A stretch of 64,000 nt of DNA from Fuscovulum blasticum DSM 2131 (GTDB taxonomy: Bacteria; Pseudomonadota; Alphaproteobacteria; Rhodobacterales; Rhodobacteraceae), in assembly GCF_003034965.1 (NCBI RefSeq), contig NZ_PZKE01000002.1, forward strand, positions 124,001 to 188,000, given 5' to 3'. Below are positions 12,922 through 23,498 of the stretch, one piece after another. Every line of letters begins with the position of its first letter. Position 1 is the stretch's first letter. A program made the translations under genes and the position numbers. Below the pieces are notes generated by a model. The model was given only the letters and a program-made list of their open reading frames with translations. It had not been told where the DNA came from and ran no database searches.

Positions 12922-13824
12922 ATGACAACATATATCGCCAATCCGCCAATCCCATTTCCAGACGCCGGCCTCGATGCGCTGCGCCTGTCGCCGGCCGGGC
13001 CGGCCTATGTGCTTGATCCGTCGCGCCCCGTTCTGGTTCATTCCCGCGCCCTTGCCGCCGGATCGGTCATCACCCGCCACGCCCATCCGCGCGCGCAGCT
13101 TCTGCAGGCGGTGCAGGGGTTGTTGCGGATCAAGACAGGCGGTGCGATCTGGCTGGTGCCGCCGGGGTTCGGGGTCTGGATTCCGGGCGGTGCAGTGCAT
13201 GAGGTCACCATCGAGACCGCCGCGCGCACCGCGAATATCTATGTCGATCCCAGCATCACCGTCCGACCCGGGCAGACCTGCGAAGTGGTGCCGGTCTCCC
13301 CGCTTCTGCGCCTGCTGATCCAGCGAATGCTGGACGAAACCCACCCTGACCGGCTGAACCGGCTGGGGGCGGTGGCCTGCGATGAAATCTCGGCGGCTGA
13401 ACCCGCGCCGCTGAACCTGCCTGTCGGGCAGGACGCGCGGCTGCGGCGCGTCACGACCAGCCTTGCGCGCAACCCGGGTGACCCGCGTCCCCTGCCCGCG
13501 CTTGCCGCGGAAGCGGCGACCAGCCCCCGCACATTGGAACGGCTGTTTCGCGCCGAAACCGGCCTTGGCTTTCGCGACTGGCGGTCCCGGGCGCGGCTGC
13601 TTCAGGCCGTTGCGCAGCTGGAACGGGGCGAAACCTCGACCCGGATCGCCTATGGCCTTGGCTACCGCAGCGTCAGCGCCTTCGTCGCGGCTTTCCGCCA
13701 GCAGTTCGGCTGCGCCCCGCAGGCCTATCTTGACCGCCCGAACCGAACTGATCCGAACACAGATGCGGGAAAGATGGCACAGGCAGATCTGGCGGAAGCG
13801 GTGACTTCCTCCGCCACTTCCTAG
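12922..13824 (+). CDS. AraC-family regulator with its 3' end altered by the island
   Basis: A 300-residue regulator with an N-terminal cupin sensor (about residues 35-110; HAHPRAQLLQAVQG) and a C-terminal double HTH (TSPRTLERLFRAETGLGFRDW and IAYGLGYRSVSAFVAAFRQQ). It diverges from the SLC13 permease and may regulate it. Start taken at ATG 12922; ATG 12904 in the same frame is possible. The left attachment repeat begins at 13790, within codon 290, so the last 11 residues and the stop codon come from the repeat and the island. Joining the AraC sequence directly to the tRNA-side sequence would give a different tail that also stays open for several codons. The HTH is intact, so the protein is probably still functional. 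Confidence 0.88.
   Translation: MTTYIANPPIPFPDAGLDALRLSPAGPAYVLDPSRPVLVHSRALAAGSVITRHAHPRAQLLQAVQGLLRIKTGGAIWLVPPGFGVWIPGGAVHEVTIETAARTANIYVDPSITVRPGQTCEVVPVSPLLRLLIQRMLDETHPDRLNRLGAVACDEISAAEPAPLNLPVGQDARLRRVTTSLARNPGDPRPLPALAAEAATSPRTLERLFRAETGLGFRDWRSRARLLQAVAQLERGETSTRIAYGLGYRSVSAFVAAFRQQFGCAPQAYLDRPNRTDPNTDAGKMAQADLAEAVTSSATS
13790..13803 (+). repeat. attL, 14-bp direct repeat of the tRNA-Ser 3' end
   Basis: TGGCGGAAGCGGTG, identical to 23409-23422 where it forms the 3' acceptor end of tRNA-Ser(UGA) read on the minus strand. It marks the left edge of the island, 161 bases before the integrase. Confidence 0.8.
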
Positions 13825-13889
13825 ACGTTCCGTAACAGTACTTTTTCCCTTATTTTATTAGGATTTATGCCCTTGCAATGTTCCGCAGT

Positions 13890-13904
13890 GTTCCGCTATT
13901 GTTC
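13890..13904 (+). promoter_or_regulatory. LexA-type SOS box before the integrase
   Basis: GTTC-CGCTATT-GTTC fits the GTTC-N7-GTTC box known for Rhodobacter LexA. A further GTTC lies ten bases upstream at 13880. It sits 60 bases before the integrase start, which suggests DNA-damage induction of excision. Confidence 0.55.
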
Positions 13905-13964
13905 ACGTCAATCCCGCGCCGAGTGGGGGAAGGCATGGCGGAATGAAAGGTTGGGATCCCTGTT

Positions 13965-15143
13965 TTGCGAAAGCCGGAAAAAACGCTGAATGCCCGCATG
14001 GTGCAGACCGTCACGGAACCGGGCAAGTACTTTGACGGCCACGGGCTTTACCTTCGGGTGGACAAGACCGGCGGCAAGTTCTGGGTGCAGCGTATCGTCA
14101 TCAACGGAAAGCGGCGCGAGTTGGGGCTTGGCAGCTTCGACTTCGTGACGCTGGCCGATGCTCGCCTTGCCGCCTTCGGCAATCGCAAGCTGGCGCGCGA
14201 GGGCGGCGATCCCCTTGCCGCTCGAAGGCAGGAGAAGACAATCCTGAATTTCGAGGAAGCCGCCCGTGAGGTTCACCGAATCCACATGCCGACATGGAAG
14301 AACCCCAAGCACGGCGAACAGTTCATCAACACGCTGACGACCTATGCCTTCCCCACTTTGGGAACGAAGCGGGTGTCTGATGTGACGACAAGCGATGTGC
14401 TGACGGCGCTGCAACCGATCTGGCTCACCAAAGCCGAAACCGCACGGCGGGTGAAGCAGAGGATCAGCACTGTCATGAAGTGGACCATCGCCAAGGGGTG
14501 GCGGCGCGACAATCCCGTTGATGCGGTGGACAAGGGGCTTCCCCGGCAGACTGACAAGGTAGAGCATCGCAAGTCCCTGCCCTACGATCAGGTTGCCACA
14601 TGCCTGCGCACGATGGCCGCTTCTCAGGCCGGGCTTTCAACGAAGCTCTGTCTTGAGTTTCTTGTGTTGACCTGTGTCAGGTCAAATGAGGCACGGGAAG
14701 CGCGATGGTCGGAAATCGACCTCAAGGCCAAGGTATGGGACATCCCCGCAGAACGGATAAAGATGGACCGGCCGCACCGCATTCCCCTTTCTGATCGTGC
14801 GCTGGCGGTGTTGAGGCGGGCCGAAGGGCTGGATGAAATTCTGGTGTTCCCCGGCGCAATCAAGGGCAAGCCGCTGTCAGATGCCACGCTGTTGAAGCTG
14901 ATCCGCGAGAACGGCTTTGAGGTGGACATTCACGGCTTTCGGACGAGCTTCCGCACATTGGCACAGGAAAGAACGAACTTCCCGCGAGAGGTTGCAGAAG
15001 CGGCGCTGGCACACCTGTCAGGGGATGCTGTGGAGCGGGCCTATGCCCGGTCTGATCTGTTCGAGAAACGGCGGAAGATGATGGGCGCCTGGGCGGCGTT
15101 TCTGGCCGAGAAGCCGGCCAAGGTTGTGGGGAGGATTGGGTGA
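13965..15143 (+). CDS. int: Tyrosine integrase (DUF4102/P4-type)
   Basis: A 392-residue site-specific recombinase. An N-terminal arm-binding domain (FDGHGLYLRVDKTGGKFWVQ) is followed by a core-binding region and the catalytic domain. The catalytic residues are visible: Arg in TCVRSNEAREARWSEI, the HGFR box in DIHGFRTSFRTLAQ, the second His in ALAHLSGDAVERAYARSD and the nucleophilic Tyr in AYARSD. The only start that keeps MRKPEKT is TTG at 13965, since an in-frame stop lies at 13944; ATG at 13998 is the alternative. It is transcribed away from attL and overlaps the next gene. It should catalyse integration into and excision from the tRNA-Ser gene. Confidence 0.93.
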   Translation: MRKPEKTLNARMVQTVTEPGKYFDGHGLYLRVDKTGGKFWVQRIVINGKRRELGLGSFDFVTLADARLAAFGNRKLAREGGDPLAARRQEKTILNFEEAAREVHRIHMPTWKNPKHGEQFINTLTTYAFPTLGTKRVSDVTTSDVLTALQPIWLTKAETARRVKQRISTVMKWTIAKGWRRDNPVDAVDKGLPRQTDKVEHRKSLPYDQVATCLRTMAASQAGLSTKLCLEFLVLTCVRSNEAREARWSEIDLKAKVWDIPAERIKMDRPHRIPLSDRALAVLRRAEGLDEILVFPGAIKGKPLSDATLLKLIRENGFEVDIHGFRTSFRTLAQERTNFPREVAEAALAHLSGDAVERAYARSDLFEKRRKMMGAWAAFLAEKPAKVVGRIG

Positions 15144-15757: not shown

Positions 15758-15824
15758 TCTGTCACAGAAGGATGCCGCTACCCTCCATCACGAACCGTAA
15801 CGGCCAGTGATGAAAGGATGCAAA

Positions 15825-16007
15825 ATGTCACGGAAAATCGCCCGCCTTACCCGGCTCGAAGAGATGACGGGCCTCAAGAAGACGAAGCTTTACGATCTGA
15901 TGAACAGTGGGGATTTTCCCCGCAAGGTTAAGCTTACCGGCAAAGCGGTGGGCTGGTTCGAAGACGAAGTGGAGGCATGGCTGGCCTCGCGGCAAGTCGC
16001 TGCGTGA
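15825..16007 (+). CDS. alpA: AlpA-family excisionase/regulator
   Basis: A 60-residue MerR-like winged-helix protein: MSRKIARLTRLEEMTGLKKT followed by KLYDLMNSGDFPRKVKLTGK and GWFEDEVEAWLASR. This is the AlpA fold, used by P4-like and satellite elements as activator of integrase transcription or as excisionase. Start at 15825 with AAAGGA seven bases upstream; upstream GTG/ATG codons in frame are less well placed. It lies about 70 bases after the previous gene and just before a run of coupled genes. Confidence 0.88.
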   Translation: MSRKIARLTRLEEMTGLKKTKLYDLMNSGDFPRKVKLTGKAVGWFEDEVEAWLASRQVAA

Positions 16008-16016
16008 GGTGGGCAC

Positions 16017-16304
16017 ATGGCACCCCGCCCCCTCTTCGCCCCTGAGCGGACAGCAGAAGAATGCCTGTGGCTTTGGCCGACAGTCCTGATCCGGTCTGGC
16101 GAAACAGGCCAGGATCAGGACTTTGCAGACCGGATCATGCAGCAAGCGCAGCGCCCCGGCTGGGAGCCATCGCCGCTGCAACTGGACCTGATGCGCAGGA
16201 TGGTGAAGCACTACTGCCCCGATGGCATCCGGCTTGATCCTGATCTGATCGCAGGAGCATCAACCGGATGGAGTGATGTAGTGATTAAGGGGGCCGGCCA
16301 ATGA
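16017..16304 (+). CDS. Small island protein, unknown
   Basis: A 95-residue protein not recognised. It starts ten bases after the alpA stop (GTGAGGTGGGCAC before the ATG) and its stop overlaps the next start by four bases (ATGA), so it belongs to the alpA-rep operon. The middle (PSPLQLDLMRRMVKHYCPDG) is amphipathic; no motif is visible. Confidence 0.6.
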   Translation: MAPRPLFAPERTAEECLWLWPTVLIRSGETGQDQDFADRIMQQAQRPGWEPSPLQLDLMRRMVKHYCPDGIRLDPDLIAGASTGWSDVVIKGAGQ

Positions 16305-16531
16305 CCCGGCCCCTGACACGGCAGCAGCGATGGCGTCAGAACAATCCCCGGCGCTACCTTGCGCACCTCTATGTGCAGGCCGGCAAGCGCCTCGGCTTCA
16401 TCACACCACAGCCTTGCGAGGTATGTGGGGGCGAAAAGGCAGAGGCGCACCACCCTGACTATGACCGACCCGGCGATGTGCAATGGCTGTGCCGCCGTCA
16501 CCATCGCCAGCATCACGCGCGGGGAGTCTGA
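16301..16531 (+). CDS. HNH-like zinc-binding phage protein
   Basis: A 76-residue basic protein. CEVCGGEKAEAHHPDYDRPG and WLCRRHHRQHH give the Cys2...His2-like metal site and an HH pair typical of short phage HNH or HNH-like zinc proteins (HHPDYDRP is a common phage signature). Catalytic competence is uncertain because the protein is short. HNH proteins near phage terminase genes often help packaging; here the gene sits before the replication gene. ATGA overlap with the preceding gene. Confidence 0.7.
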   Translation: MTRPLTRQQRWRQNNPRRYLAHLYVQAGKRLGFITPQPCEVCGGEKAEAHHPDYDRPGDVQWLCRRHHRQHHARGV

Positions 16532-16533
16532 TC

Positions 16534-16815
16534 GTGGTCTATACACTCAGCCAGAGAAACCGCCTCCATGCCGTCTATATGGAAATGGTCGGCAAGTTGC
16601 GGGCAAGTCTCACTGGTAACGTTACCAGTGAGGCCAGCATAAGGGCGCCGGTCACATGTGATCAGATCACAAGTGAGGCGCGGACCTATGCCGCCCGCCG
16701 TTCACTGTCATCTAATGACAATGAACACACCACGGTGGTGCAATCGCGCCCAGATCATCTTGGGAATTCCCGAGATAGCGCCATTCCGATTCCCATTGTT
16801 GGGAAGGCATCATGA
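16534..16815 (+). CDS. Small ORF filled with hairpin-forming dyads
   Basis: A possible 93-residue protein starting at GTG 16534 behind CGGGGAG and ending in an ATGA overlap with the replication gene. The first 30 residues (MVYTLSQRNRLHAVYMEMVG) look protein-like; the rest is disordered and matches nothing I know. The same DNA from 16609 to 16805 holds six inverted repeats with 3-4 base loops, so selection here appears to act on nucleic-acid structure. It may be a real short protein with an origin or regulatory RNA embedded in it, or merely an open frame across a structured region. Confidence 0.45.
   Translation: MVYTLSQRNRLHAVYMEMVGKLRASLTGNVTSEASIRAPVTCDQITSEARTYAARRSLSSNDNEHTTVVQSRPDHLGNSRDSAIPIPIVGKAS
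16609..16805 (+). other. Array of six hairpin-forming inverted repeats
   Basis: In order: 16609-16632, CTCACTGGTAAC followed at once by its exact complement; 16652-16676, a 25-bp dyad around TGTGATC-A-GATCACA with one mismatched pair; 16706-16720, TGTCAT-CTA-ATGACA; 16728-16740, CACCAC-G-GTGGTG; 16759-16774, CTTGGG-AATT-CCCGAG (perfect if a G-U pair is allowed); 16790-16805, TTCCCA-TTGT-TGGGAA. All sequences differ, so a single DNA-binding protein does not explain them; the common feature is a folded stem with a tight loop. They precede the iteron-bearing replication gene. Confidence 0.75.
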
Positions 16816-17420
16816 GCCGAAAGCGCAAGGCGGCAAAAGTCCTCTCAGGGCGGTTCACGGCTATGCCACACTACATTCTCGACTGCCCAGCCTATAAGGC
16901 ACTGCCACCACTCGCCCGGTGCATCTACTGGCACCTGCACCGCCTTGCCGGGGTAGCGGGCGAGAAGAATGGCGAGGTGTTCTATTCGGTGCGGAACGCT
17001 GCTGAAGATCATGGGGTTGGTAAGGATAGGGCCAACCGTGCCTTCGATGACTTGCAGGCAAAGGGATTCATATTGCCTGAACGCATCGGGCACCTTGGCA
17101 TTGAGGGGCAAGGCAAGGCCACAACGTGGCGTCTAACGCATTTCCGCGCTGACAGGGATTTCCTAAAATGGTCAGATGGTCGCGACTTCCCCGTCGCCAA
17201 GAAACAGAAGCCTGTCCTCACCACACGGACGGCCCTGTCCTCAAAACAGGGACAGTCAGTCAACACACGGGACAGGATCGCCCGCCCCTGTCCTCAAAAC
17301 AAGGACGTTTCAGGCGCTTTCGATGCCTCGCCTGTCCTCACCACCGGGACATATAAAGATATACCATCTGGCAGGGCCTCGCCTGTGGTGCGCTTGGTCA
17401 CGGGTGGGCGTGGTGACTGA
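16812..17420 (+). CDS. Winged-helix replication initiator-like protein with iterons in its gene
   Basis: A 202-residue protein. Residues 15-110 form a winged-helix-like domain (YKALPPLARCIYWHLHRLAG; EDHGVGKDRANRAFDDLQAK; GFILPERIGHLG), similar in layout to phage replication organisers and DnaT/O-type proteins. The C-terminal third is low complexity (TALSSKQGQSVNTRDRIA), because its DNA carries 20-bp iterons read in three different frames. This is the arrangement of lambda O, whose gene contains the origin. It starts by ATGA overlap with the previous gene. Replication function is inferred; a plain HTH regulator is the alternative. Confidence 0.65.
   Translation: MSRKRKAAKVLSGRFTAMPHYILDCPAYKALPPLARCIYWHLHRLAGVAGEKNGEVFYSVRNAAEDHGVGKDRANRAFDDLQAKGFILPERIGHLGIEGQGKATTWRLTHFRADRDFLKWSDGRDFPVAKKQKPVLTTRTALSSKQGQSVNTRDRIARPCPQNKDVSGAFDASPVLTTGTYKDIPSGRASPVVRLVTGGRGD
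17211..17350 (+). repeat. 20-bp iterons, candidate replication origin
   Basis: Four copies of CCTGTCCTCA-N2-AC-N2-GGAC at 17211-17230, 17234-17253, 17287-17306 and 17331-17350, plus a degenerate fifth at 17254-17273 that abuts copy 2. The copies fall in different reading frames of the surrounding gene (PVLTT, ALSSK, PCPQN, PVLTT), so the conserved unit is DNA, not peptide. Confidence 0.75.
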
Positions 17421-17669
17421 CCCCCGCATGACATGTGCCCCTGCACCAAGGCAGCACAAAGATAGCGTTTCGGATCAAGCGGCAAATTTGCCGCTTGGGA
17501 TGCCTCGGCACCACAGGCGCGCGATAACCTGGGTATCTGCGCACGGAACGCAGATAGATCGGCACCGCATCGACCGACATGTCACCGGGGGTGGTTCCGA
17601 ACTTCGGACCTCTATCGGGGACTGGCGCGGGGACTGTCGCGCAAGACACGAGCAAATTGGAGTTTTCGC
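17421..17669. other. Structured non-coding gap in the island
   Basis: No credible ORF. It contains a 22-bp perfect palindrome at 17476-17497 (CAAGCGGCAAA and its complement), an 8-bp stem with 7-base loop at 17534-17556 (TATCTGCG/CGCAGATA) and a repeated GGGGACTG near 17626-17640. It could be part of the origin, an operator region for the downstream HTH/portal genes, or a packaging site. Confidence 0.55.
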
Positions 17670-17953: not shown

Positions 17954-19165
17954 ATGATCAGATGGCCCTTCACCCGCAAGGCTTCGCAGCCTGAACAGAA
18001 ATCGCTCACCACGGCTGGTTCGTGGGTGGAGTTGATTACGGGCACCGCGCCGACAAGCTCCGGTATCTATGTCACCGCCGCCGATGCGCTCAAGGTTCCC
18101 GCCGTTTCCAACGCGGTGCAGATCATCAGCGAAGCGGTCGCAACCCTCGACATTCAGCTTAAGCGGATTGAGGGCGGCACAGAAGCTGACGATGAGGGCC
18201 ACCGCCTTCTGCCGCTGTTGCGGGACGAGGTGAACGGCTGGACAAGCGCCTTCGAGTTCTTCCGCCAGATCGTTTTCGATGCCCTTACTTCGGATGCGGG
18301 CGGCTTGGCCTGGGTAAACCGCGTGAACGAGCGGGTGGCTGAAATCATCAGGTACCAGCCGGGCGTGTTGTCCTTTGATGTTGACCAGACCACGGGGGAA
18401 CGGCGCTACAGGATCAACGCGCGCCCTGTGCCGGCGTCAGACGTGATCCACCTTCTTCCGCCGCTGGGCGTGGCCCCGCTCACCCTTGCCCGCGAAGCCA
18501 TCGGGGTTGCGGTGGACCTTGAGCGTCACGCTGCCCGGCTGTTCTCCCGTGGTGCCCGCCCAGTTGGTGCCCTGAAATTTCCGAAGGGTCTTAGCGAAGA
18601 CGCCGTGAAGAAGATCGCTGCGGTTTGGCGGGCAACCCATGAGGGCGAAAACGCCACCGGAAGAACGGCGATCTTGGCAGACGGTGCCGAGTTCCAACCG
18701 TTCACGTTCAACAGCACCGACGCGCAATTCCTCGAAAACCGGCGTTTCCAGATCCTCGAAATCGCCCGCGCCTTCAACATTCCGGCGCCGATGATTGGCG
18801 ATCTGGAACGCGCAACCTGGTCGAACAGCGAACAGAAGGGCCGTGAGTTCCTGTCTTACACGCTTGAACCATGGCTTCGGGCACTGGAAGGCGCGCTGCG
18901 ACGGGCGCTTTTTAGCGACGACGAGCGGCCTAGCTATTTAATTCGCTTCGACCGCGACGACCTGACCCGCGCCGATCTCGCAACCCGTGCGACCGTCATA
19001 AACAGCCTGATCGCATCCAAGACCATCAACCCCAACGAAGGGCGTGGCTGGCTTGGCATGCCGCCCCGCGACGGCGGCGACAGCTTCGAGAATCCGAACA
19101 TCACGAGCGGCGCGGCGCCTTCTGCCGAGCCGCCTGCAAACGAGGTGCCCCGTGAACCTGTCTGA
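17954..19165 (+). CDS. HK97-family phage portal protein
   Basis: A 403-residue portal. Typical blocks are AVSNAVQIISEAVATLDIQL, GYxP-like VHLLPPLG region preceded by SDVIHLL, GLTLAREAIG-type APLTLAREAIGVAVDLERHA and the late ARAFNIPAPMIGDLERATWS-NSEQKGREF signature, all found in HK97-type and gene-transfer-agent portals. Portals form the dodecameric DNA-entry ring of the procapsid. Length is normal and the frame is intact. It is the only full-length structural gene I see in the element, and no terminase precedes it or capsid follows it. Confidence 0.9.
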   Translation: MIRWPFTRKASQPEQKSLTTAGSWVELITGTAPTSSGIYVTAADALKVPAVSNAVQIISEAVATLDIQLKRIEGGTEADDEGHRLLPLLRDEVNGWTSAFEFFRQIVFDALTSDAGGLAWVNRVNERVAEIIRYQPGVLSFDVDQTTGERRYRINARPVPASDVIHLLPPLGVAPLTLAREAIGVAVDLERHAARLFSRGARPVGALKFPKGLSEDAVKKIAAVWRATHEGENATGRTAILADGAEFQPFTFNSTDAQFLENRRFQILEIARAFNIPAPMIGDLERATWSNSEQKGREFLSYTLEPWLRALEGALRRALFSDDERPSYLIRFDRDDLTRADLATRATVINSLIASKTINPNEGRGWLGMPPRDGGDSFENPNITSGAAPSAEPPANEVPREPV

Positions 19166-23275: not shown

Positions 23276-23297
23276 GCCCCCGGCTACGGTCGGGGGC
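23276..23297 (+). terminator. Hairpin after the small-gene operon
   Basis: GCCCCCG and CGGGGGC pair across eight bases, 12 bases after the last stop. No T run follows. Confidence 0.45.
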
Positions 23298-23334
23298 TAT
23301 GTTCCGCAGACAGCCGCGCCGTTCCGGCGTTGAT

Positions 23335-23357
23335 TGGGGGAAGCAATGGCGGAATGA
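23335..23357 (+). repeat. Right inner repeat of the island
   Basis: A 23-bp stretch (TGGGGGAAGCAATGGCGGAA plus TGA) matching 13924-13946 at 21 positions; an ATGTTCCGCAG 11-mer precedes each copy (13878 and 23299). The pair lies just inside both ends and may be integrase arm sites. Confidence 0.6.
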
Positions 23358-23408: not shown

Positions 23409-23498
23409 TGGCGGAAGCGGTGGGATTCGAACCCACGGTGGAGTTCCCCCCACGCTAGTTTTCAAGACTAGAGCCTTAAACCACTCGGCCACACTTCC
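23409..23498 (-). tRNA. tRNA-Ser (UGA), island attachment site
   Basis: A 90-base class II tRNA with encoded CCA: acceptor GGAAGTG/CGCTTCC, anticodon arm CTAGTCTTGAAAACTAG with UGA in the loop, a long variable arm, and the T arm GTGGGTTCGAATCCCAC. The gene is intact; its last 14 bases are repeated at 13790 as attL. Confidence 0.97.

Follow-up and report, generated by a model that had tools for sequence, protein, structure and literature searches.

A frame of 93 codons lying directly ahead of the replication initiator gene (rep) of a small integrated island carries six inverted repeats, all within positions 16609-16805 of the window, i.e. the whole 64,000-nucleotide stretch of Fuscovulum blasticum DNA that was analysed. 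The repeats form predicted hairpins in a density that neither base composition nor the encoded peptide accounts for, and the last of them takes up most of the putative rep Shine-Dalgarno sequence. The reading that we favour, which we hold at a little under an even chance, is that the hairpins belong to a leader ORF whose structure meters the translation of rep through coupling, in the manner of the S004-repA pair.

The island and its replication module

The hairpins belong to an island of about 9.6 kb, of the integrase/AlpA/portal type, integrated at tRNA-Ser. Its genes come in the order tyrosine integrase (13965..15143, + strand), an unknown frame, the phage AlpA excisionase/regulator gene alpA (15828..16007, +), an unknown frame, a small HNH-type gene (16301..16531, +), the hairpin ORF (16534..16815, +), rep, which encodes a winged-helix (HTH_36) replication initiator of 202 aa (16812..17420, +), a second HTH gene, the portal protein gene (17954..19165, +; 61-73% identity in close related islands) and a short prohead protease frame. 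Two copies of a 14-nt core, TGGCGGAAGCGGTG, are present, at 13790-13803 and, within the 3' end of the tRNA-Ser gene, at 23409-23422; they are likely the attachment core at tRNA-Ser(TGA). Similar arm-like sites located just inside both island ends (13875-13946 and 23296-23357) are probable integrase arm sites.

The island is related to satellite-like islands of Rhodobacterales. Portal searches in IMG/VR led to island-sized contigs, mostly with 61-68% identity across the portal and with the HTH-portal-protease order kept, and a Rep homologue is also present on a contig of Rhodobacter sp. Har01. As in the capsid-forming PICI-type (cfPICI) satellites, integrase, AlpA, replication initiator and packaging genes (portal and protease) stand together in one small, tRNA-sited island with many relatives in Rhodobacterales; unlike in those satellites, the protease frame is short, with 153 codons, and no capsid family was recognised in the island frames scanned. 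Two further sequence elements lie downstream of rep. A conserved GGGGACYGGCGCGGGGA stretch 5' of the portal gene (17616-17656), found also in loci L028, L032 and L101, could be a cos-like packaging site, and a perfect 22-nt palindrome, CAAGCGGCAAATTTGCCGCTTG, is located between rep and the next gene at 17476-17497, with the arms of a perfect 12-nt inverted repeat on either side (17380-17391 and 17508-17519).

That a replication gene follows the hairpins directly, as read from the sequence, is confirmed by the HTH_36 assignment and by the predicted Rep structure, whose best matches (4pql, 5kbj and 4pt7, the same entries as in the profile search) are plasmid RepA initiators; a profile built from 16 Rep homologues also retrieves, weakly, the N-terminal domains of plasmid initiator RepA. 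Inside the 3' end of rep there are four iterons, CCTGTCCTCA...GGAC (17207..17350, +), followed by an AT-rich stretch, and on sequence grounds this region is the probable origin. In 20 of 20 loci (the window and 19 related ones) the 3' end of rep contains repeated words, mostly of the GTCnnCA form, which are all but absent from the 400 bp 5' of the gene. The proposal that the hairpins could be the replication origin is hence disfavoured and was set aside; with the probable origin elsewhere, expression control becomes the simplest role left for them. The words near the rep 3' end vary among GTCACCA, GTCCCCA, GTCATCA, GTCTTCA and GTCCTCA, and iteron families are seen in the window and in L037, L038, L003, L047, L056, L059, L067, L069, L098, L099 and L113.

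Six hairpins and their fold

All six repeats listed by the sequence-only reading are present. H1 (16609..16632) is a perfect 24-nt palindrome, CTCACTGGTAACGTTACCAGTGAG, of -18.7 kcal/mol, which as plus-strand RNA lengthens to 16607-16634 through a U:G pair. H2 (16652..16676) is a 25-nt dyad with a single A:A mismatch at the centre of a longer hairpin, itself imperfect, that spans 16632-16696. H3 (16700..16726) is a 27-nt dyad with a loop of 3 and one mismatch, C:A on the plus and U:G on the minus strand. H4 (16728..16740; CACCACGGTGGTG) has a perfect 6-bp stem, and H5 (16757..16776; ATCTTGGGAATTCCCGAGAT) has one U:G pair on the plus strand, which is C:A on the minus strand. While these five are given without a strand, H6 (16790..16805, +; TTCCCATTGTTGGGAA) is assigned to the plus strand; it has a perfect 6-bp stem and a loop of 4, and most of the putative rep Shine-Dalgarno falls within its 3' arm.

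The 24-bp palindrome and the 25-bp dyad with one mismatch had thus been described correctly. In contrast, the stems are not mostly perfect, as three are and three carry one non-Watson-Crick pair each, and the loops of 3-4 bases hold for a folded strand but not for DNA, where H1 and H5 have no spacer. The spacings at the stem centres are 0, 1, 3, 1, 0 and 4, and the stems sit in mixed codon phases. The claim that every stem differs is nearly right: a TCAC(T)nGTnA-like core is common to the arms of H1-H3, as is TTGGGAA to H5 and H6, a likeness that is suggestive only (pairwise p 0.0015-0.23, uncorrected). A tandem duplication relating H1 to H2, with compensatory changes (peptides RASLTGNVTSEA and RAPVTCDQITSEA), is suggestive by eye and was dropped, its p value of 0.23 at the stem level not being significant.

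The summed hairpin stem score of 16609-16805 is 49. Of 2000 dinucleotide shuffles of the 282-bp region none scored above 28, of 1000 synonymous-codon permutations within the frame none above 22, and resampling of codons from host usage gave no more than 30; when the entire 64 kb was shuffled 40 times, the best 200-bp score averaged 25, with a maximum of 36. The region is the densest hairpin cluster of the window, where the next one scores 30, and also exceeds those of the related DNA compared (next 30 and 34). The minimum free energy (MFE) lies at z = -7.3 against the synonymous null. The synonymous and dinucleotide nulls rule out that the peptide or the base composition imposes the stems, and because the stems beat the synonymous-codon null, what is acted upon should be the nucleic-acid structure rather than the peptide.

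Fold prediction, which had been proposed as a check, gave strong structures on both strands, with MFE z values of -5.5 on the plus strand, -6.5 on the minus strand and -6.5 as a DNA fold. Positions 16597-16727 (131 nt) are predicted to fold predominantly into a single structure, in which H3 stands beside a three-way junction (z -7.9). The predicted junction domain (16599..16698, on neither strand in particular) consists of a GCGGGC/GCCCGC closing helix around H1 and the extended H2 arm, and the first 100 nt contain GCGGGC/GCCCGC and GCATA/TATGC as nested outer helices. When H1 and H2 were kept fixed and the rest of 16597-16698, a domain picked after the fold had been seen, was shuffled, the energy was matched in 47 of 2000 cases on the plus strand (p ~0.02) and in 5 of 2000 on the minus strand (p ~0.003); the hairpin region as a whole shows no excess energy of this kind. 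The earlier preference for a folded RNA or single-stranded DNA over repeated operators stands in so far as the stems were confirmed and differ from one another, the peptide does not explain them, and the nested helices fit one folded strand better.

That the stems are operators, arrayed for a dimeric regulator or for several, is very improbable. It would suit the perfect, zero-spacer palindrome H1, the nearly perfect H5 and the core shared by the H1-H3 arms, and H1 weakly resembles an imperfect dyad just 5' of alpA (15781-15817, with the H1-like part at 15788-15810; p 0.012). However, the centre spacing varies from stem to stem, the sequences differ and operators would have no use for nested outer helices; the window contains other matches at least as good as the one 5' of alpA, and a shared operator was discarded on that account.

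Concerning the strand, wobble pairs give a mixed answer: the H1 extension and H5 favour the plus strand, H3 and the total energy the minus strand, and folds are strong on both. For a separate regulatory RNA, two kinds of precedent exist. The copy-number RNAs of plasmids are counter-transcripts that pair with the rep leader, and the CI RNA of satellite P4 is a processed immunity RNA 5' of the replication gene. Either form, a minus-strand counter-transcript pairing with the rep leader or a processed RNA similar to CI, seems rather unlikely here. The position just 5' of rep fits both, being where these structured RNAs also lie; hairpins form on both strands with a fold slightly stronger on the minus strand, as the z values and the nested-helix p values above indicate, and H3 pairs fully on that strand only. 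On the other side, H5 and the H1 extension pair fully on the plus strand only, neither strand showed a promoter (none of sigma-70 type was found) or a convincing terminator, Rfam 15 gave no family match at or near gathering score, and no extended complementarity with the remainder of the island turned up. The promoter, processing and pairing target of the precedents have no counterpart found in the window.

Hairpins acting as single-stranded DNA or cruciforms, whether as priming or primosome sites, as a second replication or transfer element or as sites for structure-specific proteins, are an improbable explanation. The mismatches lack a clear strand preference, the DNA fold is strong (z -6.5) and the cluster adjoins rep; moreover, no primase was recognised among the island frames scanned in the window, whereas in some relatives, whose islands use another replication module, the slot after HNH is taken by a primase or an AAA protein. 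Against it, the iterons mark the origin at the other end of rep, a similar cluster precedes rep in no relative compared, and a DNA site needs no open, coupled frame.

The hairpin frame and its origin

The hairpin ORF starts with GTG, 2 nt past the HNH stop and with GGGGAG upstream. Its first 18 residues, MVYTLSQRNRLHAVYMEM, resemble the start of a gene of about 290 codons (MVYQASRIRRRRATQAEM and similar) that precedes rep in relatives and that in L098 adjoins the 3' side of HNH. This match is the best among 3000 start codons in the window (permutation p ~1e-4), and past residue 18 the frame shows no match to that gene. From these comparisons, the frame is probably a gutted remnant of the ~290-codon gene, its body filled with hairpin-rich DNA; only the start of that gene and the overlap with rep would have been retained.

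No homologue of the frame or of the hairpin region was found by exact-word scans of 85k genomes and of IMG/VR, by tblastn of phages and plasmids, among 397 family genomes, by DNA search, with a covariance model or with exact H1 and near-exact H2 patterns. A match in L013 (E 0.003) was taken as chance, as it lies inside a long frame, contains a stop and has an unrelated context. Searches for a second copy in the own genome and genus return self matches only. The peptide, described earlier as disordered in this part, is so in a single-sequence AlphaFold model at residues 58-93, while residues 5-57, which include the H1 and H2 codons, are predicted as helices; overall confidence of the model is low (pTM 0.28), and a fold search with it gave no match.

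A neutral or selfish palindrome array, left without function in the gutted gene by template switching or by insertion of palindromic elements, is unlikely. Its occurrence in one island only, the orphan peptide, the apparent gutting of the gene and the mixed codon phases would all agree with it, and there are precedents in the Rickettsia palindromic elements and in the coding palindromes of nematomorph mitochondria, for which a function is doubted (PMC6649704). These, too, are palindromes within coding frames (PMC6649704); they differ in that the window has a single locus with several short, distinct stems, not a multi-copy family, and its stems are not in conserved protein regions. Six distinct stems per 200 bp are, however, far beyond the shuffles, the frame is still open with start and overlap intact, and a spreading element would be expected to have left further copies, in genome or genus.

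Proposed coupling of rep to the preceding frame

The stop of the hairpin ORF overlaps the rep start codon as ATGA (16812-16815). In 32 of 38 homologous loci an upstream frame likewise has its stop no more than a few nt from where rep starts; 17 of these are overlaps of the TRATG kind, and a lenient count gives 36 of 39 (some loci share a genome or near-identical elements, so that the counts are not fully independent); among control ATGs opening frames of at least 100 codons, 56 of 397 have a nearby upstream stop. The gene before rep varies, being HNH in L047, L059 and L069, the ~290-codon unknown gene in L098, L067 and L074, and others elsewhere.

The putative rep Shine-Dalgarno, GGGAAGG (16801..16807, +), lies mostly within H6. 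Its first four bases have an unpaired probability of at most about 0.03, and in all contexts tested the core is taken up almost completely by pairing in H6; the rep start codon is mostly unpaired in the longer fold contexts. Low Shine-Dalgarno accessibility is also common in the hairpin-less relatives. The structure itself is peculiar to the window: the region before rep has z = -7.6, against a mean of -0.7 in 34 other Rep loci, none of them comparably structured, and a family-wide RNA before rep is rejected on this basis. As a separate observation, the frame before rep in a viral contig (L072, 4894-5150) is also unusually structured (z -4.4).

Taken together, the ATGA overlap, the coupled arrangement across the family and the position of the Shine-Dalgarno within H6 point to a leader that needs to be translated for Rep to be made. 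Leader-rep systems of plasmids, e.g. repY-repZ and tap-repA, are comparable to S004-repA. In the island SGI1, S004 is a leader that overlaps repA; the Shine-Dalgarno and start of repA lie masked by an inverted repeat, and translation of the leader in cis has been shown experimentally to be essential (PMC7826253). Both SGI1 and the window present a mobile island, a small leader frame whose end overlaps rep and an inverted repeat over the rep Shine-Dalgarno (in the window a putative one, beside a start codon that is mostly unpaired), which translation of the leader would open (PMC7826253). They differ in that leader and initiator are unrelated, there are six stems in the window instead of one long one, and coupling in the window is inferred.

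Under the leader reading, HNH, the hairpin frame and rep would be carried on one mRNA. While the leader is untranslated, H6 would hide the rep Shine-Dalgarno, and the upstream stems would hold off ribosomes and alternative pairings; a ribosome completing the leader would melt the stems one by one, open H6 and re-initiate at the overlapping ATG. The stems, and the host-rare codons within them, may slow or meter this flow, so that little Rep is made per transcript, H1-H5 serving possibly in ribosome metering, mRNA protection or insulation. Several points weigh against this. H6 alone would be enough for coupling, so that five further stems are not required; the minus strand folds slightly better than the plus strand; and the rep start codon is mostly unpaired in the longer contexts. 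The low Shine-Dalgarno accessibility in relatives that have no hairpins, the lack of comparable structure in the 34 other loci and the failure to find a sigma-70-type promoter count against it as well. A related, unlikely proposal is that a multi-hairpin RNA or single-stranded DNA module occupying the gutted slot between HNH and rep sets Rep dosage by its successive stems, with shape and not sequence under selection.

The literature consulted gives no description of how the replication initiator is dosed in satellite-like islands of Rhodobacterales. The Rep family offers a natural set of initiator/iteron specificity variants of the GTCnnCA type, each beside its own initiator. If the multi-hairpin proposal were true, such a module would represent, for satellites, a structured control element of a new type. 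More generally, the locus suggests that translation of rep is tied to the preceding frame in these islands, and that one of them may have replaced its pre-rep frame by a chain of hairpins.
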